From an uncultured Oscillospiraceae bacterium (lineage in GTDB: Bacteria > Bacillota > Clostridia > Oscillospirales > Oscillospiraceae), in the NCBI GenBank assembly GCA_934574095.1, contig CAKTMW010000032.1, positions 1-20,533 of the forward strand: DNA of 20,533 nucleotides. Direction: 5' to 3'. The position numbers and the translations under genes were made by a program. The notes beneath the pieces were generated by a model, which did not search any database, was not told the DNA's origin, and saw only the letters and a program-made list of their open reading frames with translations. Positions 1,226 to 14,200 of this stretch are shown here, in pieces (position 1 is the first letter of the stretch; each line of letters opens with the position of its first letter).

Positions 1226-2500
1226 ATGGGACTTATTAAAGCGGCATTGGGCAGCGTGGGCGGCGTGATGGCCGACCAGTGGAAAGAGTACTTTTATTGC
1301 GAGTCACTGCCTGAGAACGTCATGGCTATTAAGGGTCAGAAGCGCACCTCCGGCCGCTCCAGCAATACCAAGGGAAGCGACAACGTGATCTCCAACGGCA
1401 GCGTCATCGCCGTGGCCGATGGTCAGTGCATGATGATCGTGGATCAGGGTCGCATCATCGAGGTCTGCGCCGAGCCGGGCGAGTTTACTTATGACATGTC
1501 CACCGAGCCGTCCCTGTTCACCGGCGAGCTGAAGGGCAGCATCCGCGCCGTCATCGACAGCATGACCAACCGCTTCACCTTCGGCGGCGAGGCTCCCAAG
1601 GATCAGCGAGTGTACTATTTTAATACCAAAGAGCTGATGGGCAACAAGTACGGCACCCCCAGCCCCGTGCCCTTCCGGGTGGTGGATCAGCGTGCCGGTA
1701 TCGACATTGACGTGGGCATCCGCTGCTTCGGCGAGTACAGCTATCACATCACCAACCCCGTCCTGTTCTATACCAACGTCTGCGGCAACGTCAGCGAGGC
1801 CTATACCCGCGACAAGCTGGACAATCAGCTGAAAACCGAGCTGCTGACCGCCCTCCAGCCCGCCTTCGCCAGGATCGGCGAGAACGGTATCCGCTACTCC
1901 CAGCTGCCCGGCCACACCATGGAGCTGGCCGACGCGCTGAACGAGGTGCTCAGCAAGAAGTGGCGTGACCTCCGCGGCATCGAGATCGTGTCCTTCGGTG
2001 TGTCCAGTGTCACCGCCGACGAGGAAGACGAGAAGATGCTCAAGGAGCTGCAGCGCAACGCGGCCTTTATGGACCCCACCCGCGCGGCGGCCCACCTGGT
2101 GGGCAGCCAGGGCGACGCCATGAAGATGGCGGCCAGCAATCAGGGCGGCGCGGCCATGGCCTTCATGGGCATGAACATGGCCGGTCAGGCCGGCGGCATG
2201 AACGCCCAGAGCCTGTACGCCATGGGTCAGCAGCAGGCGGCCCAGCAGCCCGCTCCCGCGGCAGCCAACGGCTGGACGTGCAGCTGCGGCCACGGCGGCA
2301 ACACCGGCAAGTTCTGCGCCGAGTGCGGCCAGCCCAAGCCCGCCCCCGCCGGCGAGTGGAAGTGCGCCTGCGGCGCGGTGAACACCGGTAAGTTCTGCTC
2401 CGAGTGCGGTCAGCCGAAGCCTGCCGCCGAGTGGACCTGCTCCTGCGGCAGCGTCAACAAGGGTAAGTTCTGCGCCAACTGCGGCAATCCCCGGCCCTGA
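1226..2500 (+). CDS. SPFH-domain protein with three C-terminal zinc ribbons (YdjI-like)
   Basis: A 424-aa cytoplasmic, membrane-associated protein. Residues about 20-265 form an SPFH/band-7-type domain of the YdjI ('virion core protein') subfamily, followed by an Ala/Met/Gln/Gly-rich linker (about 285-348). Three tandem zinc ribbons close the protein: Cys352/354/364/367, Cys380/382/391/394 and Cys405/407/416/419, each C-x-C-x(8-9)-C-x2-C. In Bacillus subtilis, YdjI works with YdjG and YdjH to bring a PspA-family protein to the membrane; here homologues of both partners lie downstream. The ATG has an AAGGAG site 8 nt upstream. There is no signal peptide. It is the first gene of a four-gene operon ending at the 5091-5122 terminator. 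The SPFH assignment is by motif style and context; the zinc ribbons are directly visible. Confidence 0.85.
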   Translation: MGLIKAALGSVGGVMADQWKEYFYCESLPENVMAIKGQKRTSGRSSNTKGSDNVISNGSVIAVADGQCMMIVDQGRIIEVCAEPGEFTYDMSTEPSLFTGELKGSIRAVIDSMTNRFTFGGEAPKDQRVYYFNTKELMGNKYGTPSPVPFRVVDQRAGIDIDVGIRCFGEYSYHITNPVLFYTNVCGNVSEAYTRDKLDNQLKTELLTALQPAFARIGENGIRYSQLPGHTMELADALNEVLSKKWRDLRGIEIVSFGVSSVTADEEDEKMLKELQRNAAFMDPTRAAAHLVGSQGDAMKMAASNQGGAAMAFMGMNMAGQAGGMNAQSLYAMGQQQAAQQPAPAAANGWTCSCGHGGNTGKFCAECGQPKPAPAGEWKCACGAVNTGKFCSECGQPKPAAEWTCSCGSVNKGKFCANCGNPRP

Positions 2501-2539
2501 GGTACGTGACAGCAACAACGGAGAAATGAGGAAAAGACT

Positions 2540-3103
2540 ATGCAGTATGTAGACTATTACGATTACTATTATGAGTACAGCACCCCGGTCTACGCCAGCC
2601 CGGTGGTCAGCATCGCCTCCCTGGCGCTGAGCGTACTGCTGATCGTGGCCATGTGGGTCCTGTTCAAAAAGGCCGGCAAACCCGGCTGGGCCTCCATCGT
2701 GCCGTTCTACAACATCTATGTGATGTACGAGATCACCTGGGGCAGCGGCTGGCGCTTCCTGATGCTGCTGATCCCTTTCTACAACATCATTCTGGGCATC
2801 CAGACGCAGGTGAAGCTGGCCAAGGCCTTCGGCAAGGGCGGCGGTTTCGCCGTGGGCCTCATCTTCCTGCCCTATGTGTTCGAGCCCATTCTGGCCTTCA
2901 GCGACGCTGCCTATCTGGGTGTTCCCGGCAAGAACGGTGCCTATCAGCAGTCCCAGCGCGAGGGCTACGCCCCCAACGCCGACAGCTATCAGCAGAATAC
3001 CTACCAGCAGCCGGAGCCGGAGTTCCGGGTGACCTTCTGTCCCAACTGCGGCGCCAAGGTCAACGGCGGCAAATTCTGCGAAAACTGCGGCAAGCCCCTG
3101 TAA
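2540..3103 (+). CDS. DUF5684-type membrane protein with C-terminal zinc ribbon
   Basis: A 187-aa membrane protein. A Tyr/Asp-rich N-terminus (1-18) is followed by hydrophobic segments at about 22-43, 52-65, 72-88 and 103-121. The blocks KKAGKPGWASIVPFYNIYVM, IPFYNIILGI, LAKAFGKGGGFAVGLIFLP and the following P-I-L-AF-DAAY are hallmarks of DUF5684, a family often mislabelled signal peptidase I. It has no Ser/Lys catalytic pair. A Gln/Tyr-rich linker (134-162) leads to a zinc ribbon with Cys167, Cys170, Cys180 and Cys183, resembling the ribbons of the SPFH protein upstream. The GAGGAAAAG site precedes the ATG, and the gene starts 39 nt after the SPFH stop. Function is unknown; I infer a membrane anchor or partner for the operon's complex. 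Confidence 0.8.
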   Translation: MQYVDYYDYYYEYSTPVYASPVVSIASLALSVLLIVAMWVLFKKAGKPGWASIVPFYNIYVMYEITWGSGWRFLMLLIPFYNIILGIQTQVKLAKAFGKGGGFAVGLIFLPYVFEPILAFSDAAYLGVPGKNGAYQQSQREGYAPNADSYQQNTYQQPEPEFRVTFCPNCGAKVNGGKFCENCGKPL

Positions 3104-3136
3104 CACAGGGAAGAGAGAAAAATCGGGAGGAAAATT

Positions 3137-4276
3137 ATGGCATCCCAAATTACCAACTATAAGTGTCCGGCCTGCACGGGCCCCCTGCACTTCGTGGGGG
3201 CCTCCGGCAAGCTGGAGTGCGATTTCTGCGGCGGCAAGTACGATGTGGCGGAGATCGAAGCCCTGTATGCCGAAAAAGAGGCCAAGGCCGTCGAGGCCAC
3301 CGGGCAGGCCAACGCCAAGGCGGAGCAGAACCGCAAGAAATTAGAGGAGATGGAGGCCCAGGGCTGGGACACCTCATCCCTCAGCAGCGACTGGGGCAAG
3401 GACGCCAACGGCATGAAGGCCTACAACTGCCCCAGCTGCGGCGCGGAGCTGATCTGCGACGAATCCACCGCCGCCACCTCCTGCCCTTATTGCGGCAACC
3501 CCTCCGTGGTGCCGGGGCAGTTCAGCGGCGCGCTGAAGCCGGACTACGTTATTCCCTTCAAGCTCAGCAAGGACGATGCCATCGCCGCCCTGAAAAAGCA
3601 CTACAAGGGCAAGCCCTTCCTGCCCAAGGCCTTCACCAAGGGCAACCACATCCAGGAGATCAAGGGCGTGTACGTCCCCTTCTGGATGTTCGACGGCCGG
3701 GCCGAGGGTCACGTGGAGTACGAGGGTCTGATCTCCCACGTCCACACCGAGGGCGACTACGAGGTCACCACCACCGAGCATTACGACGTGCGCCGCGGCG
3801 GCGATATCGCCTTTGAAAAGGTGCCGGTGGACGCCTCCAGCAAAATGCCCGACGACCACATGGACTCCATCGAGCCCTACAATTACAAGGATCTCAAGCC
3901 CTTCTCCACCGCATATCTGCCGGGCTTTCTGGCGGATAAGTACGACGTGTCCGTGGCGGGCAGTCAGGAGCGGGCCGACAGCCGCTGCACCGCGTCTCTG
4001 GAGGCGGCGCTGCGCCGCACGGCCAACATGTACGACACCTGCGTCCCGCTGAATCAGGATATCCGCCTGAAGCGGGGCAAGGTGCACTACGCGCTGCTGC
4101 CCGTCTGGATGCTGCACACCAAGTGGAACGGCAAGGATTTCCTGTTCGCCATGAACGGCCAGACCGGCCGTCTGGTGGGCGACCTGCCTACTGATATGGG
4201 CAAGTTCTGGACCACGTTCGCGGCCATCGCCATACCGGTGACGGCGCTGGCGACGCTGATCCTGCATATTCTGTAA
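3137..4276 (+). CDS. Double zinc-ribbon, tail-anchored membrane protein (YdjG-like)
   Basis: A 379-aa protein with two zinc ribbons, Cys10/13-Cys28/31 and Cys98/101-Cys116/119, separated by a charged, probably helical stretch (about 37-75). The middle region (about 125-345) contains the conserved-looking blocks KPDYVIPFKLSKDDA and IKGVYVPFWMFDGRAEGH, then KVHYALLPVWMLHTKW, as in YdjG and related TFIIB-type zinc-ribbon proteins. One membrane segment at the extreme C-terminus (about 357-379) suggests tail anchoring with the body in the cytoplasm. A GGGAGG site lies 6 nt before the ATG. It sits between the DUF5684 and TPM genes. Similarity to YdjG is judged by architecture and neighbours, so the family match is likely but not proven. 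Confidence 0.8.
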   Translation: MASQITNYKCPACTGPLHFVGASGKLECDFCGGKYDVAEIEALYAEKEAKAVEATGQANAKAEQNRKKLEEMEAQGWDTSSLSSDWGKDANGMKAYNCPSCGAELICDESTAATSCPYCGNPSVVPGQFSGALKPDYVIPFKLSKDDAIAALKKHYKGKPFLPKAFTKGNHIQEIKGVYVPFWMFDGRAEGHVEYEGLISHVHTEGDYEVTTTEHYDVRRGGDIAFEKVPVDASSKMPDDHMDSIEPYNYKDLKPFSTAYLPGFLADKYDVSVAGSQERADSRCTASLEAALRRTANMYDTCVPLNQDIRLKRGKVHYALLPVWMLHTKWNGKDFLFAMNGQTGRLVGDLPTDMGKFWTTFAAIAIPVTALATLILHIL

Positions 4277-4291
4277 GGGAGGGTCGAGAGG

Positions 4292-5074
4292 ATGAAAAAG
4301 AAATTTTTGACCCTTTTGCTGGCGCTGATGATGGCGCTGGCGCTGACCGTCCCCGCCTGGGCGGAGCAGCAGCCCGGCGATGCCTTTGTCTATGACATGG
4401 CGGGCCTTCTGTCCGAGGAGGACGACGCCTATCTGGAGGCGCTGGCCAGCCAGATATCCTGGGAGCATAACTGCGCTGTGTATATCGTCACCGTGGAGGA
4501 TTATGAGGAGTACGACAGCGATATCCACTACGCGGTGGTGTCCTTCTATGACAACAACAGCCTTGGCATCGGCGAAAACCGCGAGGGTATCCTGCTGATG
4601 CTGAGTATGTACGACCGCAGCTATGACCTGTATGTCCGGGACGGCGGCATTGCCCAGTACGCCGTCAGCGGCTATGGCCGTCACAAGATGACCGATGTCT
4701 TTCTGGATAACTTCGCCGACGACGACTGGCGGGGCGGCTTCGAGGATTACCTGTTCGCCTGCGACGAATACCTGACGCTGGCGGAGCAGGGGACGCCTGT
4801 GAAGAAGTCACTGACCAGTTCTCTGCTGCCCGGTCTTGCCATCGGCATCGGCGTGGCGCTGGTCATCTGCATGAGCCTGAAGGGTATGATGAAGTCCGTC
4901 CGCAGAAGCGCCCGCGCCGACATCTATGTGACCGAGGAGGGGCTGAACCTGACGGAGCAGTTTGACCGCTATACCCACACCACCGAGACCCGCCGCAAGA
5001 TCGAGAAGGATCATGATTCCGGCAGCAGCGATCACTCCGGCGGCGGCGGTTCCAGCACCAGTGGACATTTCTGA
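4292..5074 (+). CDS. TPM-domain membrane protein (YdjH-like)
   Basis: A 260-aa exported membrane protein. Residues 1-24 are a signal peptide with a likely AWA|EQ cleavage site. A TPM (TPM_phosphatase) domain covers about 29-166, with VYDMAGLLSEEDDAYLEAL at its start and the central NREGILLMLSMYDRSYDLYV strand region. A membrane segment follows at about 177-197, then a cytoplasmic basic region and a Gly/Ser-rich tail ending GGGGSSTSGHF, a typical TPM ending. The domain would face outside the membrane. It starts 15 nt after the YdjG-like stop with GGGAGG/GAGAGG upstream, and is the last gene before the terminator. In B. subtilis the TPM protein YdjH lies beside YdjG and YdjI. Enzymatic activity of bacterial TPM domains is unsettled, so I claim none. 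Confidence 0.85.
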   Translation: MKKKFLTLLLALMMALALTVPAWAEQQPGDAFVYDMAGLLSEEDDAYLEALASQISWEHNCAVYIVTVEDYEEYDSDIHYAVVSFYDNNSLGIGENREGILLMLSMYDRSYDLYVRDGGIAQYAVSGYGRHKMTDVFLDNFADDDWRGGFEDYLFACDEYLTLAEQGTPVKKSLTSSLLPGLAIGIGVALVICMSLKGMMKSVRRSARADIYVTEEGLNLTEQFDRYTHTTETRRKIEKDHDSGSSDHSGGGGSSTSGHF

Positions 5075-5248: not shown

Positions 5249-6133
5249 TCATCGGTCCCCGTTCTCCGCCACCCAGCTCCGGACGTAGTCCACAAACCGG
5301 CGGGTGGAGGCGGACAGGGTCTTTTCGTCCTTCACACCGATGCCGATGCTGCGGTGAAAGGTCATGGGCGGACGGCAGGCGGTGACGGGGTAGGGGCTGT
5401 GGCGCACCATCAGCTCCGGCAGCAGGCTGATGCCCAGCCCTTTGGACACCATGGAGAGGATAGTGCGGTCCTCGCGGGCGGTGTACTTCACCTGGGGGCG
5501 GACGCCCATCTTGTCCAGGGCCGCCACGATTTCGTAGTCCTCGCCCTCCTCCAGGCGGATGAAGGGCTCCGACGCCAGGGCTTCCAGCGGGAAGGGGTCG
5601 CTGTCTGCCAGCGGGTGGTTGGGGGGGACGATGACCTGCAACTGGTCCTGATGCAGGGGAAAGGCCCGCAGGTGCTTCACCGACGGCAGGCGGAGGAAGC
5701 CGCAGTCCACCGTGCCACGCAATATCCACTCTTCGATCTGGTCATAGAAATCGCCGGTGACCACCTCGAACTCAATGTTGGGATAGAGCTGGCCGAAGCT
5801 CTGGAGGATAGAGGGCAGCCAGTGGACCGACACGCTGGTAAAGGTGGCGACCTTCACCAGACCGGCGTCAACGCCCTTCAGGCTGGCGGCGGACTGCATC
5901 AACGCGTGATGAGCGGCGCAGAGCTTCTCAATTTGGGGCAGCAGGGCGCGGCCGTCGGAGGTCAGCGCCACGCCGCCCCGGTTGCGGCTGAGGAGCTTCA
6001 CGCCCAGCTCATCCTCCAGCGCCTGCACCGCGTGGCTGACGCCGGACTGGGTGAAGTTCAGGGCCTGGGCCGCTTTGGAGAAGTTGCCGCACTGGGCCGT
6101 TTTCAGGAAAATCTGGTATTTGGAGATGCTCAT
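5249..6133 (-). CDS. LysR-family transcriptional regulator
   Basis: A 294-aa protein of normal LysR length. The N-terminal winged helix-turn-helix covers about residues 1-60, with the typical GNFSKAAQALNFTQSGVSHA helix pair followed by LEDELGVKLLSRN and a LT-x-DG turn. Residues about 90-294 are the periplasmic-binding-like effector domain (VKVATFTSVSVHWLPSIL, then the VIVPPNHPLA block and SKGLGISLLPELMV). The ATG at 6133 is preceded by GAGGCGG. It has its own promoter (6167-6196) and is divergent from the 83-aa zinc-ribbon gene at 6339. LysR proteins often control the divergent neighbour, so that gene is the first candidate target. The effector cannot be predicted. Confidence 0.92.
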   Translation of the reverse strand: MSISKYQIFLKTAQCGNFSKAAQALNFTQSGVSHAVQALEDELGVKLLSRNRGGVALTSDGRALLPQIEKLCAAHHALMQSAASLKGVDAGLVKVATFTSVSVHWLPSILQSFGQLYPNIEFEVVTGDFYDQIEEWILRGTVDCGFLRLPSVKHLRAFPLHQDQLQVIVPPNHPLADSDPFPLEALASEPFIRLEEGEDYEIVAALDKMGVRPQVKYTAREDRTILSMVSKGLGISLLPELMVRHSPYPVTACRPPMTFHRSIGIGVKDEKTLSASTRRFVDYVRSWVAENGDR

Positions 6134-6338: not shown

Positions 6339-6590
6339 ATGGCACTGGTAACGAAGACGATCCGCTGCGCGGCTTGCGGCAGCAGCGCTGTCACTTTTGA
6401 TGGAAAGAACTACATCTGCGCGGAGTGCGGCGCCCGCAGTGAGCAGGCGATGCCCGCCGCCGACCTGGCGGCGGTGAACCGCATCGTGGCCCTGGGCGGC
6501 GACAGCGAGGAGCTTGCCCGCCTGCGCAAGCAGTACAAGAATCTGGATATCACCAGCTGGTCCAGCGAGAACCGCTTGCAGGTGAAGTAA
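6339..6590 (+). CDS. Small zinc-ribbon protein (83 aa), function unknown
   Basis: The protein has a four-cysteine zinc ribbon, Cys10/13 and Cys27/30 (IRCAACGSSAVTFDGKNYIC), followed by a short helical region rich in Ala, Glu and Arg (about 36-66) with no membrane segment. The AAGGAGG site at 6322-6328 serves the ATG at 6339; the nearer ATG at 6332 opens a 22-codon frame that stops early and is not preferred. It has its own promoter and a strong hairpin behind it, so it is a single-gene unit. The ribbon resembles the first ribbon of the YdjG-like protein at 3137, which may point to a shared origin. I cannot assign a function; it may bind protein or nucleic acid. Confidence 0.75.
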   Translation: MALVTKTIRCAACGSSAVTFDGKNYICAECGARSEQAMPAADLAAVNRIVALGGDSEELARLRKQYKNLDITSWSSENRLQVK

Positions 6591-6621
6591 AAAACGTACC
6601 CTCTTTCTTTTCAATAAGCGG

Positions 6622-6654
6622 AAGGCCCGGCGCGTGTTCTGCGCGCCGGGCCTT
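6622..6654 (+). terminator. GC-rich hairpin after the zinc-ribbon gene
   Basis: AAGGCCCGGCGCG (6622-6634) pairs perfectly with 6642-6654 around TGTTCTG. The tail is short in T (right arm ends CCTTTC), so termination may be incomplete, but position and stem strength favour a terminator. Confidence 0.65.
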
Positions 6655-6707
6655 TCGTCGGTCAGAAGGGGAGTGTGAAAATTTTGGCAGGAAACGGAAA
6701 ATTCCTC

Positions 6708-6736
6708 TTGCAATTCTTTACACGATGCCGTACAAT
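6708..6736 (+). promoter_or_regulatory. Promoter of the riboswitch-controlled surface-protein gene
   Basis: TTGCAA (6708-6713) and TACAAT (6731-6736) are 17 bp apart. The start near 6743 lies just before the riboswitch and about 395 nt before the coding start. Confidence 0.65.
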
Positions 6737-6744
6737 ACAGGTAA

Positions 6745-6900
6745 CAAGTTCATAGAAGCAGGACGACGTGCCGGTCTTTCGGGACTGGCGGCGGAATGGG
6801 GTGAGATGCCCCGCGAGAAGGTCACTGTGATGCCCGCTGAGACGGGATAAGTCAGATACGTGATGCGCCGCTCCTGGGCTTTCGCCATTCCCGAAGCCGA
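6745..6900 (+). promoter_or_regulatory. Cobalamin (B12) riboswitch
   Basis: The leader shows the ordered conserved elements of the cobalamin riboswitch: GGAAT followed by a GGGG/CCCC stem closing the GGTGAGAT loop (6798-6812), GAAGGTCACTGTGA (6817-6830), a CCCG/CGGG hairpin (6833-6846), and ATAAGTCAGATACGTG (6847-6862), the B12-box region. A further stem GGCTTTCG/CGAAGCC follows near 6877-6899. Two U-tailed terminators come immediately after, so B12 binding would be expected to stop transcription. Outer paired regions are approximate. The aptamer subtype (adenosyl- or aquo/methylcobalamin) was not determined. Confidence 0.82.
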
Positions 6901-6918
6901 AGCATGAAGTGCTGTTTG

Positions 6919-6952
6919 CGCACGGTCTGCTTTGGCCGTGCGTTTTGTTTTT
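6919..6952 (+). terminator. Riboswitch expression platform: first terminator
   Basis: CGCACGGTC (6919-6927) pairs with GGCCGTGCG (6934-6942), with one G-U wobble and a TGCTTT loop, followed by TTTTGTTTTT. It lies 20 nt after the riboswitch core. Confidence 0.75.
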
Positions 6953-6985
6953 GCGCATGGCCGGGATTGGCTGTGCGCATTTTTT
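6952..6985 (+). terminator. Second tandem terminator in the surface-protein leader
   Basis: TGCGCATGGCC (6952-6962) pairs with GGCTGTGCGCA (6969-6979), with two wobble pairs and a GGGATT loop, followed by TTTTTTATTTT. It begins where the T-tail of the first terminator ends. Confidence 0.7.
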
Positions 6986-7138
6986 ATTTTGCAAGCCGAA
7001 CGGCATTACGCCGTTGTGTTTTCCATAGAGGCGGGGGAAGGATTTGCCGGTCCTCCCCCCGCCGCACCTCAAAAACCCAAGGCCACGCGGCCTTTTCAGA
7101 TAGAGAAAAATCACACAAGAGAAAGGAAGATCACACGA
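6986..7138 (+). other. Untranslated leader with three further hairpins
   Basis: No convincing gene lies here. Three stems are visible: AACGGC/GCCGTT (6999-7015, then GTGTTTT), a 13-bp GC-rich stem with one mismatch (7030-7042 with 7051-7063), and AAGGCC/GGCCTT (7079-7094, then TT). The third precedes the GAAAGGAAG ribosome binding site. The frame upstream of 7139 stays open by chance back to 6932, but it would have to be translated through the second terminator and these hairpins. Confidence 0.55.
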
Positions 7139-10100
7139 ATGAAGAAACGAATCGCGGCATTGCTGCTGGCGCTGGTGATGGCATTCAGCCTGATCCCCGC
7201 TACGGTATTCGCCGAAGAGGACCATACCAACCAGGTCCATGTCATCGTGGAGAACACCACATTTACCAAGGCACAGGAGGGTGGCAAGGCGCCTGCCTGG
7301 ATGGGTACGTTGGTAGATGAGTGGGTGGCGCTGACGGGGAGCTCCACTATGATGTCCTGTGTCAAGGCGGCACTGGACGCGGAGAGCATCTCCTCGGTTG
7401 GTGTGGAGGACACCTATATCTCCAGCATCAACGGGCTGGCGGCCAATGACGGCGGCTCTATGTCCGGCTGGATGGGTACGCTGAACGACTGGTTCACCAA
7501 CGTAGGCTTTGCCTCTATTACAGAGGCAAGCGGCATGCTGACTGCCGGTGACGAGATCCGCATCATGTATACGAGCAACGGCTATGGCGCGGATCTGGGC
7601 GGCAGCTGGGACAACAACGACAAGACAGTGAAGGCGCTGACCTTCTCCGCCGGTACGTTGGACAAGGAGTTTAACAAGGATACCCATGAATACACCCTGA
7701 CCGTTCCTGCGGATGTGACCGCTGTAAAGGTGACGCCCACCGCCAGCAACAAGAACTTCCAGGTGCGCACCAGTGTGGGCAAGATCGAATACAAGCGTAC
7801 CGCCATGGTGCCTGTGGAAAATGATACAGTTATCACCGTCAAGTGCGGCGACCCCAGTTGGCCCAGCATGAACGACAACGATGGTGAGGCGCAGATATAT
7901 ACTATTACCGTAAAGACGGAGGGCGAAACGCCTGTGACGCCCCCGGCAGACGCCCAGAACGTGACGTTCAAGGGCCTGCACGACGCGCAGCTAAAATATC
8001 TGAAGGTCTATCGCGTGGGCGACGAGACCACCAACCTGCTGAAGGGCTTGGATCGGATCGCTGACGGCTACAAGTATAAGTATGAGACGAAGCTGTCTCC
8101 GGGCGAATATCTGGTGAAGGGCTATGACGAGCATGACGACTTCAACGGCAGCCTGGTGCTGACGGTGAAGGAAGGCGAGAATGTTTTCCATCTGGCCCGA
8201 TTCTATGAAATCTATGCCAGCAACAGCGGCTGGGTCAAGGATACGGATTATACTATTTCGGTAAAGGTCAAGGATGCAGAGGGCAATGATCTCAAGGCAG
8301 AGACCGGAACGGCTACCAGTTGGGGCAACACCAGCACATCCTGTCTCTATATGCCGGGCGGTACGGTCACCATAACGCTGACCCCCATTGGCGAAAAGGC
8401 GGAGGGCTATCTGCCCTATGAAGAGACTGTAATCACAAAAGCCGACGACAGCGCGAAGAGCTTTGGCAAGGAGATTCCCAAGGCGTCCGCAGTGACCGTT
8501 CACGCGCCTGCCGGTTCGACCATCAGCGCCGGTGTATTCCACAACTACTGGACGTATGAGTTTGTAGAAGCGACGTCGGAGACAAAGGGCAACGAGGGCG
8601 TTACCGGTGTGTACACGCTTCCTGTCGTTCCCAGTACCGACGGTTATTTGAACTACCACAACCACTTTGTGCGGGTGCAGCATCCTGACGGCGTGACCTA
8701 TTGGACCTTCGGCAAATGGAATGAGGCCACCGAGATCACCGTTACAAAGGATGATCTGCACATCGGCGACAGCAGCTTTACCAAGAGCAGTGTGATCGAC
8801 GATTTCAGCAGAAGCAAGTATGATCTGGGCAGCATCTATCTGAATATCAACTCTCAGGGCTACAAGAACATGGCAGTTGGCGAGACGTTTACGCTCAATA
8901 CGTTCCGTAACTGGCAGGCTATTGAGAGCTATATGAATGCAAAGATCGCACTGCCTGATGTACACTACCGTGTTGTTGATGTGAACGGCAACGACAGCAA
9001 TGTGCTGGCCATTACTCCCGATGCCAACAACAGCGGTCTGGCCACTGTTACCGCCAAGCAGGCGGGCACCGCCATTGTGCTGGTGACCTATGACGCCATG
9101 ACTCATGCGCAGGGCTATGCGGGAACGGACCTTTCCGCCATCTGGCCGGAGTTTACCGGTGTGTTTGTGGTGACGGTGGGCCAGGACGGCACCGGTATTC
9201 AGACCAATATGACCATGGAGCGTCCGACCTCCAAGGCAACGACGCTGGACGCTGAGCATGATATCCTGTTCTACCTGGGCAGCAAGGGTGCGTCTTACAG
9301 CTTCAAGCCGGAGGACGGCTGCACGGTAACGGTGGCCCGCTCCACCGTAGGCAGCGCCATGAGCTTTAACGGCTTTACCGCCGACGGCGTCTCTGTGGCG
9401 GCGGACGGCACTGTGACCGTCAAGGGACTGACCACCGGGCGGCACATTATCCGGGTGGAGAAGAACGGCGTGGCGGCCTATCAGGTGGTCACGGCCCGCG
9501 GCGTCAGCTATGACCTGCTGGACGCCGACGGCAAGAAGCTGGCCGATGACGCCGAGCTGAAGCCCGGCGATACGGTGAAGATCCAGTTCCGCGGCCTGGT
9601 GAACCCCATTGAAAAGATGGCGGGCGTCTATAACCGTGTGCCTCTTATCCTTATGGTGGGCGAGGACGGTACGAAGTATATCAGCGGCAAAGCAGGTATT
9701 TCGGGTGTATATACGTTTAGCAGCGACCCGGCATTGCAGCAGATCACCATTACGATACCGGAGAGCGTGACCGGAATAACCTATAAGGTGTCTGGCGCGA
9801 TTCAGGCAGGTAAGGCGTTTGGCTTGGTTACCGGCGCACACCGCGGAGCGGCCTATAACGTAGGAAGCGGTAGCTATACGTCAACCGTGGGAGATATTCT
9901 GTCCCAGCTGCCGGAGGTCGCCTTGAAGCTGGTGGGCTATAACGAAATCCAGGCCCCGGTGGACAAGGTGGAGGATATGATCGACGCCATCGGCACCGTG
10001 TCCAAGGACAGCGGCAAGGCGCTGGCCGCCGCCCGTGCGGCTTACAACGCCCTGAACGATGAGCAGAAGGCGCTGGTGCCCGAAGAGGTGCTGAAGGCCC

Positions 10101-10354
10101 TGGAGAAGGCCGAGGCGGACTACGCCAAGCTGCTGAACGACAGCAAGTATGAGCCCAATCCTCTGAAGCCCGGCAACAACAGCTCTGCCAAGAACCCCTA
10201 TCAGAAGGATAATAAGACCGATACCAAGGCCGACAGCAAGGACGTGAAGTCCGGCAATACCGGCGACGCTGGCATCGCCCTGTACGTGGGCATGGGCCTG
10301 CTGGCCGCAATGGGCGGCGCGGTGGTCATCGGCCGCAAAAAGAAAGCAAACTGA
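7139..10354 (+). CDS. Large surface protein with DUF4430 (transcobalamin-like) domain, putative B12-capture protein
   Basis: A 1071-aa exported, wall-anchored protein. Residues 1-25 are a signal peptide (AWMG... follows after VFA|EE). About 33-147 is a DUF4430 domain, the fold of the transcobalamin C-terminal domain, with ISSINGLAANDGG, WMGTLNDWF and LTAGDEIRIMYT. A cadherin-like beta-sandwich follows (about 160-261), then several beta-rich, Ig-like regions including one at about 575-660, and a helical FIVAR-like stretch (about 947-997, ARAAYNALNDEQKALV). The C-terminus has SGNTGD (1038-1043), a hydrophobic helix and RKKKAN, a variant sortase signal. ATG 7139 is chosen for its GAAAGGAAG site and the signal peptide; the upstream open frame is leader. 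The B12 riboswitch supports a role in cobalamin capture at the surface; ligand binding is inferred. Confidence 0.85.
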   Translation: MKKRIAALLLALVMAFSLIPATVFAEEDHTNQVHVIVENTTFTKAQEGGKAPAWMGTLVDEWVALTGSSTMMSCVKAALDAESISSVGVEDTYISSINGLAANDGGSMSGWMGTLNDWFTNVGFASITEASGMLTAGDEIRIMYTSNGYGADLGGSWDNNDKTVKALTFSAGTLDKEFNKDTHEYTLTVPADVTAVKVTPTASNKNFQVRTSVGKIEYKRTAMVPVENDTVITVKCGDPSWPSMNDNDGEAQIYTITVKTEGETPVTPPADAQNVTFKGLHDAQLKYLKVYRVGDETTNLLKGLDRIADGYKYKYETKLSPGEYLVKGYDEHDDFNGSLVLTVKEGENVFHLARFYEIYASNSGWVKDTDYTISVKVKDAEGNDLKAETGTATSWGNTSTSCLYMPGGTVTITLTPIGEKAEGYLPYEETVITKADDSAKSFGKEIPKASAVTVHAPAGSTISAGVFHNYWTYEFVEATSETKGNEGVTGVYTLPVVPSTDGYLNYHNHFVRVQHPDGVTYWTFGKWNEATEITVTKDDLHIGDSSFTKSSVIDDFSRSKYDLGSIYLNINSQGYKNMAVGETFTLNTFRNWQAIESYMNAKIALPDVHYRVVDVNGNDSNVLAITPDANNSGLATVTAKQAGTAIVLVTYDAMTHAQGYAGTDLSAIWPEFTGVFVVTVGQDGTGIQTNMTMERPTSKATTLDAEHDILFYLGSKGASYSFKPEDGCTVTVARSTVGSAMSFNGFTADGVSVAADGTVTVKGLTTGRHIIRVEKNGVAAYQVVTARGVSYDLLDADGKKLADDAELKPGDTVKIQFRGLVNPIEKMAGVYNRVPLILMVGEDGTKYISGKAGISGVYTFSSDPALQQITITIPESVTGITYKVSGAIQAGKAFGLVTGAHRGAAYNVGSGSYTSTVGDILSQLPEVALKLVGYNEIQAPVDKVEDMIDAIGTVSKDSGKALAAARAAYNALNDEQKALVPEEVLKALEKAEADYAKLLNDSKYEPNPLKPGNNSSAKNPYQKDNKTDTKADSKDVKSGNTGDAGIALYVGMGLLAAMGGAVVIGRKKKAN

Positions 10355-11205: not shown

Positions 11206-14200
11206 TCAGAACAGGCTGACCTGGCTGGTTTCCGCCATGCCGGCGAAGGCGCCCAGGGCTTTCAGCTGTTCGATGTGGGTCTTACTGAGCTTGTTGCAGG
11301 TCAGGGAGAACTCCTCAATGGAGATGAACTCCTTGCCCTGGCGCTGCTCCAAGGTGGCCAGGGCCGCCGCCTCGCCCAGGCCGTGTACCGACACGAAGGG
11401 CGGCAGCAGGGCGTCGTCGCCGATGATACGGAAGTGAGTGGCGTCGGACTCGTAGATATTGATGGTATCGAAGTGGAAGCCCCGGAGATAGAACTCGTAG
11501 CAGACCTCCAGCGTCACCATCAGGTTTTGCTCCACATCGGTGGCGTCCTTGTTGTTTTCAATCTCTTTGATCTTCCGCTTGACGGCCTCCAGGCCGGCGC
11601 AGCAGAACTCGGCGTCGAAGGCCTTGGCCCGGATGGAGAAGAAGGTGGCATAGAAGGCCAGGGGCTTATGGACCTTGAACCAGGCGATGCGGAAGGCCAT
11701 CATAACGTAGGCCACGGCGTGGGCCTTGGGGAACAGATAACCGATCTTGGCCAGGGAGTCGATGTACCAGTCGGGGACGTTGTGATCCCGCATGGCCTCC
11801 TCCCAGCCCTCGGAAAAGCCGCCCTTCTTCACCTTGCCCTTACGGACAGCCTCCATGATCTTGAAGCTCATCTTGGGATCCAGCCCCATGGAGATCAGGT
11901 ACAGCATGATATCGTCGCGGCAGCCCACCGTTTCCAGAACCGTGGCCGTACCGCTGACGATCAGGTCGCGGGCGTTGCCCAGCCACACGTCGGTGCCGTG
12001 GGAGAAGCCCGACAGACGCACCAGCGTATTAAAGTTGTCCGGCTGGGTGTCCACCAGCATCTGGCGGGTGAACCGGGTGTTGAACTCCGGGATCGCCACA
12101 GCGCCGGTGGGCCCCAGAATTTCATCATTCTCATACCCCAGAACCTTGGAGGAGATGAAGATGGACATGGTGTCCGGATCGTCCAGGGGAATCTGACGGG
12201 CGTTGACGCCGGTCAGGTCCTCCATGTACTTGATCATGGTGGGGTCATCGTGACCCAGCATGTCCAGCTTCAGCAGGTTGTCCTCCATGCAGTGGTATTC
12301 AAAATGGGTGGTGACGGTGTCGCTGTTGGCGTCGTCGGCGGGGTGCTGCACGGCGGTGAAGTCCTCCACGTCCATGTCGTCGGGCACCACCACCAGACCG
12401 CCGGGGTGTTGGCCGGTGGTGCGGCGCACACCCACGCAGCCCTGGGTCAGACGGTTCATCTCGGCATTGGAGGCGGTCTCGCCCTTTTCCTCCAGATACT
12501 TCTTCACCATGCCGAAGGCGGTCTTTTCTGCCAGCGTACCGATGGTGCCGGCCCGGAACACCTGAGTGCTGCCGAACATCTCAATGGCGTGACGGTGGGC
12601 GCGGGCCTGATACTCGCCGGAGAAGTTCAGGTCGATATCCGGCACCTTGCCGCCGCCGTAGCCCAGGAAGGTCTCAAAGGGGATGTCGAAGCCGTCCTTG
12701 TTGAGCTTTGTGCCGCATTTTGGGCAGGTCTTGTCGGGCATATCCGCGCCGCAGCCATACTGGGGGCCCTGCTGGAACTCCACGTACTGGCAGTTGGAAC
12801 AGTAGTAGTGGGGCGGGAGGGAGTTCACCTCGGTGATGCCGGACATATAGGCCACCAGAGAGGAACCCACAGAACCTCGTGAGCCCACCAGATAGCCGTT
12901 TTCCAGGCTCCGCTGCACCAGCTTCTGGGCGGACATATACACCACGTCGTACTTGCCCAGAATGCTGCCCAGCTCCACATTCAGCCGGTCCACGATCAGC
13001 TGGGGGGGATTTTCGCCGTACATGGCGTGGCACTTGGACCAGACCCTGTCGTTGAGTTCCTGCTCGGAGTTTTCCAGGCGGGGCGGGAACAGCTGTCCCG
13101 GCGGCAGGAGCTCAATCTCCTCCACCAGGTCGGCAATATGACGGGGGTTGGTGATGACCACCTCACGGGCTTTCTCCTCACCCAAATAGGAGAATTCCTT
13201 CAGCATCTCGTCGGTGGTCTTGAAATAGATGGGCAGGGGGGCGTCAGCGTCGGAAAATTTTTTGCTGGCCAGGAGGATGTGGCGGTACACCTCATCCTCC
13301 GGCTCCTGAAAATGCACGTCGCCGGTGGCGCATACGGGCTTGCCCAGCTCTTCGCCCAGCTTTACAATGGTGCGGTTGAAGTCCCGCAGCTCCTCTACCG
13401 ACTGGACGTCGCCGTTGCGCAGCATGAACATATTGTTGCATACCGGCTGAATTTCCAGATAGTCGTAAAAGCTGGCGATGCGCTTCAGCTCCGCCCACTC
13501 CCGGTGATCGGCCACGGCGCGGAACAGTTCGCCCGCCTCGCAGGCCGAGCCGATGATGAGACCCTCACGGTGGGCCGCCAGCTCCGTCTTGGGGATGGTG
13601 GGCACACGGTGGAAGTATTGCAGGTTGGAGGCGGTGATGAGCTGGTACAGGTGCTTCAACCCCAGTTTGTTCTTGGCCAGGATGATGATGTGCTTGGGAA
13701 AGCGGTTGGACTTGCCGGTCTGGGGGCGGAGCTTGGCCATTTCGTTGTTGATCTGCTGGATGCGGTCGATGTGCAGCTGGTCGCGCATCTTCTGGAAGAA
13801 GGGCACCAGCATATAGGCCACCATCCCCGCGTCGTCGCTGGCGCGATGGTGGTTGAAGGCGGGCAGGTCCAGATAGTCCGCCACGATGTCCAGCTTGTAC
13901 TTGTGGAGCTCCGGCAGCAGATTCTGGGCCAGAATGAGAGAGTCGATATACGTGGGATCGAAGGGCAGCCCTACCTTTTCGCAGCCCGCCCGGATGAAGC
14001 TGATATCGAAGGGGGCGTTGTGGGCCGCCAGCGGGCGGCCGTCCACGAATTTCAAAAAGGCCGTCAGGGCGTCCTTCAAAGAGGGGGCATCCGCCAGCAT
14101 GGCGTCGGTAATGCCCGTCAGACCGATAATCTCCGGCGTCAGGCGGCGCTGGGGATTGACGAAGGTCTGGAACGTGTCGGTGATCTGGCCGTTTTTCAGC

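Follow-up and report, generated by a model that had tools for sequence, protein, structure and literature searches.

Background

The closest described relatives of the system analyzed here are transcobalamin-like SLBB proteins, which Burroughs et al. reported in 2007 from low-GC Gram-positives (PMC1796856). These proteins carry signal peptides, anchors and toroid fusions, the toroid standing before or after the SLBB domain, and their operons also encode a second SLBB protein together with CbiO/CbiQ; scavenging of vitamin B12 by these proteins, and a passage of such proteins from bacteria into animals, were proposed. By an equation of our own, we treat these proteins as members of the Pfam family DUF4430 (PF14478). 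In this work we analyze one such protein of 1071 amino acids (aa), encoded downstream of a compact cobalamin-riboswitch-like leader (6759-6985) in a 20,533-nucleotide stretch of contig CAKTMW010000032.1 of an uncultured Oscillospiraceae bacterium (assembly GCA_934574095.1), hereafter the window.

The described proteins and the window protein share their nature as secreted, often wall-anchored beta-grasp proteins and predicted B12 scavengers. Gram-positive B12 scavengers were thus predicted in 2007; what is added here is the leader RNA and the proposed control by a riboswitch, the link to CbrT through a CbrT-like S component, a blind spot of Rfam, and a beta-only orphan form combined with a compact aptamer. 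The main text of PMC1796856 contains none of the terms riboswitch, ECF and energy-coupling, the terms transcobalamin and DUF4430 are absent from PMC11477304, PMC8123684 and PMC6593275, and in a search covering few subscription papers no article linked DUF4430, or transcobalamin-like proteins of bacteria, with CbrT or with cobalamin riboswitches.

Other known systems offer partial parallels. Unlike human transcobalamin (TC), intrinsic factor and haptocorrin, the window protein has no toroid, and the bacterial relatives of these carriers mostly place the beta domain first, within large surface proteins. BtuG of Bacteroides shares the proposed role of surface-exposed B12 capture, but it is a Bacteroides lipoprotein with BtuB as its partner (PMC6143338). 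Among RNAs, the compact cobalamin riboswitch classes IIa and IIb have been described (PMC11477304). An original prediction, made from the letters of the window, had proposed that a cobalamin riboswitch with a terminator drives a wall-anchored protein that captures cobalamin and hands it to a transporter encoded elsewhere; we find it right on the identity of the system and probably right on its function.

Results

Homology and covariation of the leader RNA

Homology and covariation between sequences identify the leader RNA as cobalamin-riboswitch-like. The compact element recurs ahead of genes of the same family at L005 and L072, two related loci that were retrieved through their proteins only. 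A search pattern drawn from the elements of the window and these two loci, and hence dependent on the window sequence, gave five matches, L005 included, in 4 of the 391 genomes of the class, and the pattern read backward gave none among the matches listed. A covariance model, R1, was then compiled from the leaders L110 and L113 and, from genome G005, L005 and L114, so that three other genomes are represented and the window is left out; three of the four leaders were chosen through the pattern partly based on the window, so that R1 is not blind to the window sequence. R1 matches the window at 6791-6861 with 85.8 bits (E = 3.9e-23), its sole match there up to E = 10.

Double-sided changes affect 5 of the 14 pairs among only four sequences, a figure matched by 1 of 500 shuffles, and the number of further pair types is unremarkable, being reached by 186 of 500; relatedness is uncontrolled in both comparisons. 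Within seven elements from six genomes, the outer arms of the aptamer pair at 34 of 35 positions; crossing the arms between elements lowers this to 82 of 210. The folding energy of the window leader lies at z = -3.9.

Across the same 391 genomes, R1 returned 22 matches in 18 genomes. When 20 of these loci were searched with Rfam, 8 overlapped RF00174 or RF01482 above the gathering threshold; the five loci closest in form (L115-L118 and L133) are among the remainder, and some of its other members may be due to chance. DUF4430 or toroid proteins start in the downstream 1.5-kb flank at six of the 22 matches (one of them, L115, a locus retrieved by protein, and another, L117, part of the model) and on the upstream side at one (L121). 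In genome G401, the compact element of L116 precedes a BtuF-type gene (PF01497, E = 5.3e-32), behind which lie genes that by eye encode a permease and an ATPase, and at L131 an element with an Rfam match above gathering precedes a protein resembling the BtuF type by eye; several other matches are followed by other genes or by no clear gene. The conserved core and covarying stems common to accepted cobalamin riboswitches are thus found through R1, the Rfam overlaps and the stem counts, and the G401 element supplies a corrinoid gene context that would fit control by the RNA.

The leader carries a GGTG..CC hairpin, CACTGTGA and GTCAG.TAC, which we take to be the boxes of cobalamin riboswitches and which recur in the Rfam clan CL00101 (RF00174, RF01482). 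In contrast to the Rfam families, the window element is compact and its P7-like hairpin short, and the elements of the window, L115, L116, L117, L118 and L133 score under the gathering thresholds. The names P5-like and P7-like are presumed by analogy. The part of the original prediction that named a cobalamin riboswitch therefore stands on R1, covariation and the boxes, with the aptamer inside the span proposed for it, and the literal RF00174 match that was to verify it is missing.

Two further observations concern R1 matches. L123 and L130 lie upstream of proteins that by eye resemble oligopeptide/nickel-type substrate-binding proteins, possibly serving cobalt or corrinoid uptake; and L111/L118 (genome G212) has about 120 extra bases inserted at the P7-like position of its compact core, in a stretch that stops before a clear gene.

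The domain and its fold

Residues 69-145 of the window protein match DUF4430 (E = 2.1e-9, 38.2 bits against a cut-off of 23.8), which places it in the transcobalamin-like SLBB/DUF4430 clade, and the AlphaFold model of residues 26-165 reaches a predicted local distance difference test (pLDDT) score of 89.4. Every one of the top 15 Foldseek and top 14 VIA matches of this model is a transcobalamin, a haptocorrin or an intrinsic factor. Both the profile and the model support the original equation of this region with the transcobalamin beta domain. The fold of BtuG is a different one. In the model the helix is followed by short strands, which may or may not correspond to the beta-hairpin insert through which members of the clade would contact B12. 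A GWMGTLNDWFT run is invariant in 17 of 17 aligned homologues, and the window and L005 proteins are 64% identical across the domain.

As originally noted, the alpha half is missing: the window protein has no toroid match and thus lacks the complete transcobalamin architecture, in which an alpha/alpha toroid stands in the same protein. Human TC-beta on its own binds cobalamin, and TC alpha and beta made apart from each other assemble in vitro only when cobalamin is present (PMC5599065). Two peptide patterns of the domain, scanned against genome contigs, hit 92 places; the best 80 of these, 79 of them distinct, serve here as related loci; by our own hidden Markov model a toroid is encoded in 51 of the 79, in the same open reading frame (ORF) at 39 and in another at 12. 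The worry over the missing half is eased by both facts. Homologues number 3352 at E <= 1e-3 among 7990 candidates scored; of six searched with Pfam, PF00432 was above its cut-off of 26.5 in P0009 and P0065, under it in P0035 (26.2) and P0020 (21.9), and without a match in two. A model of the R. bromii DUF4430-toroid protein of locus L031 (pLDDT 83.3) has a toroid that matches many alpha/alpha toroids, TC and intrinsic factor included; since terpene cyclases and transferases score equally well or better, the toroid alone is not diagnostic.

Genome G005 also holds a second compact riboswitch-like element (L207, reverse strand 12801-12870), which leads a gene for a 2477-aa surface protein with no DUF4430 or toroid match, and then a gene whose 763-aa product contains DUF4430 twice.

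Riboswitch and transporter linkage in related loci

RF00174 was sought in 73 genomes (38 + 35) of the 79 loci, and a same-strand match was counted as linked when it lay between -200 and 1000 bases from a DUF4430 or toroid ORF. By coordinates, at least 38 of the 79 loci have such a match. Exact sequence comparison places 36 of the 38 elements in their loci (the exceptions being L049 and L069), and the L044 element is also present in L031, giving at least 37 of 79 with strands taken from the RF00174 search results; R1 adds L004, L005, L054 and L072 (L005 being in the model), so that at least 41 of 79 have a cobalamin-type riboswitch just upstream. Among the matches listed, moving the counting interval upstream by 5 kb leaves a count of 7 in place of at least 38, and by 7 kb a count of 4; downstream shifts leave 1-4 and the opposite strand 8. 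With a shift of 1.5 kb the count among these matches is still 21, and with 3 kb it is 13, a residue that we ascribe to operons holding more than one such gene. One locus, L007, has three tandem RF00174 elements (4515-4706, 5549-5737 and 6580-6768) with two short DUF4430-like ORFs followed by long ones, which suggests repeated duplication of the riboswitch and part of the gene.

Transporter genes were counted among the next three genes at the 50 loci with at least 2 kb beyond the cluster, with ATPases recognized by motif. An EcfT-like or ATP-binding cassette (ABC) ATPase gene is present at 28 of the 50, both at 18; before the cluster, where the room was not equalised with the downstream side, either occurs at 1 of 78 loci. 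Pfam confirms CbiQ/EcfT, a double ABC ATPase and an energy-coupling factor (ECF) S component at L042 and L037, and a double ATPase and S component at L025, whose two T-like proteins have no Pfam match. The best match in the PDB of all four S components tested is 6fnp_A (E = 1.5e-7, 3.5e-8, 9.3e-10 and 3e-5); 6FNP is ECF-CbrT, which imports cobalamin and cobinamide (PMC5997447), and its chain A would, judging from length and match, be CbrT itself. A CbrT-like S component occurs in 12 of 13 chosen genomes, the exception being G401, whose riboswitch precedes BtuF; a PF01497 protein occurs in 8 of the 13 and a B12-binding enzyme domain in all.

Relatives' operons thus join transcobalamin-like surface proteins to CbrT, whereas the window gene has no S, T or ATPase gene of such an operon among the neighbours scanned. 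Genome G005, the source of L005, shows a DUF4430-EcfT-ATPase-S-EcfT operon on a contig separate from the riboswitch-led surface gene, and the R1 element was not found in that operon stretch. We propose that the window may follow the same split, with the surface gene apart from the transporter operon. The 28 of 50 loci, the four CbrT-matching S components and the G005 operon support the original suggestion that the corrinoid would be handed to a transporter encoded elsewhere.

The window gene and its neighbourhood

The features of the window are collected in Table 1.

Table 1. Features of the leader and the 1071-aa protein gene in the window
Feature	Position	Strand	Basis
Promoter-like site TTGCAA-17-TACAAT	6708..6736	+	Consensus scan, 9/12 positions; 1 found against 0.1 expected in shuffles
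Compact cobalamin-riboswitch-like aptamer (outer arms 6759-6763/6872-6876)	6759..6876	+	Outer-arm pairing
Conserved aptamer core	6791..6861	+	Model R1, built without the window
Core closing stem	6791-6793/6859-6861	+	Alignment pair counts
P5-like helix	6798-6801/6809-6812	+	Alignment pair counts
Core CTG/CAG pairing	6825-6827/6853-6855	+	Alignment pair counts
P7-like hairpin	6833-6836/6843-6846	+	Alignment pair counts
Hairpin with loop CCATTCC, directly 3' of aptamer	6877..6898	+	Local fold
Intrinsic-terminator-like hairpin, then TTTTTT	6952..6985	+	Scan, 12 pairs; fold
Coding sequence, secreted surface protein, 1071 aa	7139..10354	+	ORF, ATG 7139 to stop 10354
Signal peptide, residues about 1-25	7139..7213	+	Translation read by eye
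DUF4430/transcobalamin-beta-like domain, residues 26-165 as modelled	7214..7633	+	Pfam, AlphaFold and fold matches
Cadherin-like beta-sandwich, residues 166-259	7634..7915	+	PF12733, E 5.4e-9
LPXTG-like cell-wall anchor, residues 1040-1069	10256..10345	+	TIGR01167

The terminator foreseen upstream of the gene was recovered by both scan and fold as a terminator-like hairpin at 6952-6979 before the T run. A longer nested hairpin starting at 6917 uses the same 3' arm, and four terminator-like sites lie in 6500-7200 on both strands, against 1.2 expected in shuffles. By eye, and in the window only, the loop CCATTCC is complementary to GGAATGG at 6794-6800, and the two are possible kissing or switching partners.

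A secreted, wall-anchored multidomain protein is likewise predicted, with the C-terminal anchor signal of sortase-anchored surface proteins above the cut-off of NCBIfam TIGR01167 (18.8 bits against 15.9) and under that of Pfam PF00746 (15.4 against 20). Seven of the nine neighbouring ORFs scanned have a Pfam match (SPFH, DUF5684, Trm112p-like, TPM, LysR regulator, sigma factor and PolC-type polymerase), none of these with a B12-related function. Four successive genes at 1226-5074 encode the SPFH, DUF5684, Trm112p-like and TPM-domain proteins, the first three of which, by eye, seemingly have cysteine-rich zinc-ribbon-like stretches.

Discussion

Our comparisons show what the RNA is (by homology and covariation), which fold the domain is predicted to take, and that riboswitch, toroid and CbrT-like genes are linked in relatives. 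On this basis, the locus probably encodes riboswitch-repressed surface capture of corrinoids, which are passed to a transporter encoded elsewhere. When cell corrinoid is low, the leader would permit transcription through; when it is ample, binding of cobalamin to the compact aptamer would let the terminator (6952-6985) halt transcription, a direction of switching that we infer. Once exported, the protein would stay bound to the cell wall, where the beta-grasp domain at its N-terminus would bind cobalamin or related corrinoids at the surface, either by itself or with a toroid (alpha) protein from another locus as a clamp. The corrinoid may then pass to an ECF-CbrT-type or BtuFCD transporter, itself presumably encoded elsewhere.

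Several observations weigh against this reading. On the RNA side, Rfam gives no match at gathering threshold in the window, 12 of the 20 R1 loci searched have no cobalamin match above that threshold, 6 of the 37 listed RF00174 matches fall below it (L031, L034, L039, L043, L044 and L066), and 38 of the 79 loci have no riboswitch within 1 kb among the matches listed. As to transport, 22 of the 50 loci have no ECF-like gene among the next three, and the window, as the original prediction had noted, shows no transporter gene among the nine neighbouring ORFs scanned, genes past 15150 having been read by eye only. No toroid was found in window ORFs of 100 aa or more. PDB sequence and profile searches with the domain found no transcobalamin and just one Foldseek E-value is below 0.001, so that the modelled link to transcobalamin rests on fold and Pfam. 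A reviewer in PMC1796856 raised other possible ligands for SLBB domains, and residues 260-1040 could hold the chief function of the protein.

The best-surviving alternative, which we hold to be unlikely, is that the domain binds another ligand, such as cobinamide, other cobamides, a corrinoid precursor or cobalt, and that the riboswitch only places the gene in a corrinoid regulon. A diversity of ligands has been proposed for SLBB domains (PMC1796856), cobalamin riboswitches show broad corrinoid sensitivity (PMC9600662), and TC-beta binds cobinamide too (PMC5599065); yet the closest folds of the domain are B12 carriers throughout, and the linked S components best match CbrT. Because CbrT takes both cobalamin and cobinamide (PMC5997447), this alternative differs from cobalamin capture mainly in the exact corrinoid.

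A leader that has decayed, or that is some unrelated structured RNA, with expression unresponsive to corrinoids, is very improbable. A permissive Rfam scan of 6600-7150, which lists the best family of each clan only, does not list RF00174 and has as its best match RF01482 AdoCbl (6766-6916, E = 2.1), at 16.3 bits against a gathering threshold of 50, and the related L005 leader folds at only z = -1.3, with 19 of 200 shuffles equally good; but the core is strongly conserved with compensatory changes, the compact element precedes a BtuF-type gene in G401, and R1 recovers Rfam-grade cobalamin riboswitches as well. Still less credible is an adhesin or wall structural protein with a vestigial beta-grasp domain and B12 control as a cue to gut location: the big multidomain ectodomain (cadherin-like and uncharacterised regions, wall anchor) and the beta-only form with no transporter among the scanned neighbours would suit it, but the GWMGTLNDWFT run is invariant and longer relatives also bear the toroid.

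Conclusions

Beyond riboswitch-repressed corrinoid capture at the window, we advance tentatively, as a possibility that we would not bet on, that gut Clostridia may possess a riboswitch-governed two-jaw B12 trap, in which wall beta and toroid proteins, in one chain or from separate genes, clasp one corrinoid in the manner of human transcobalamin and pass it to CbrT; the window protein would be a free jaw, and the animal carriers a domesticated bacterial piece, still active in the gut and competing with the host. The compact aptamer, if real, suggests that corrinoid regulons are undercounted by Rfam-based surveys in this group. If the capture reading is true, the 2007 prediction becomes a testable system, in which regulation tells when the protein is made and the CbrT link where the vitamin goes, and Gram-positive gut bacteria would own a surface B12 capture parallel to BtuG of Bacteroides, with a fold shared with host intrinsic factor.

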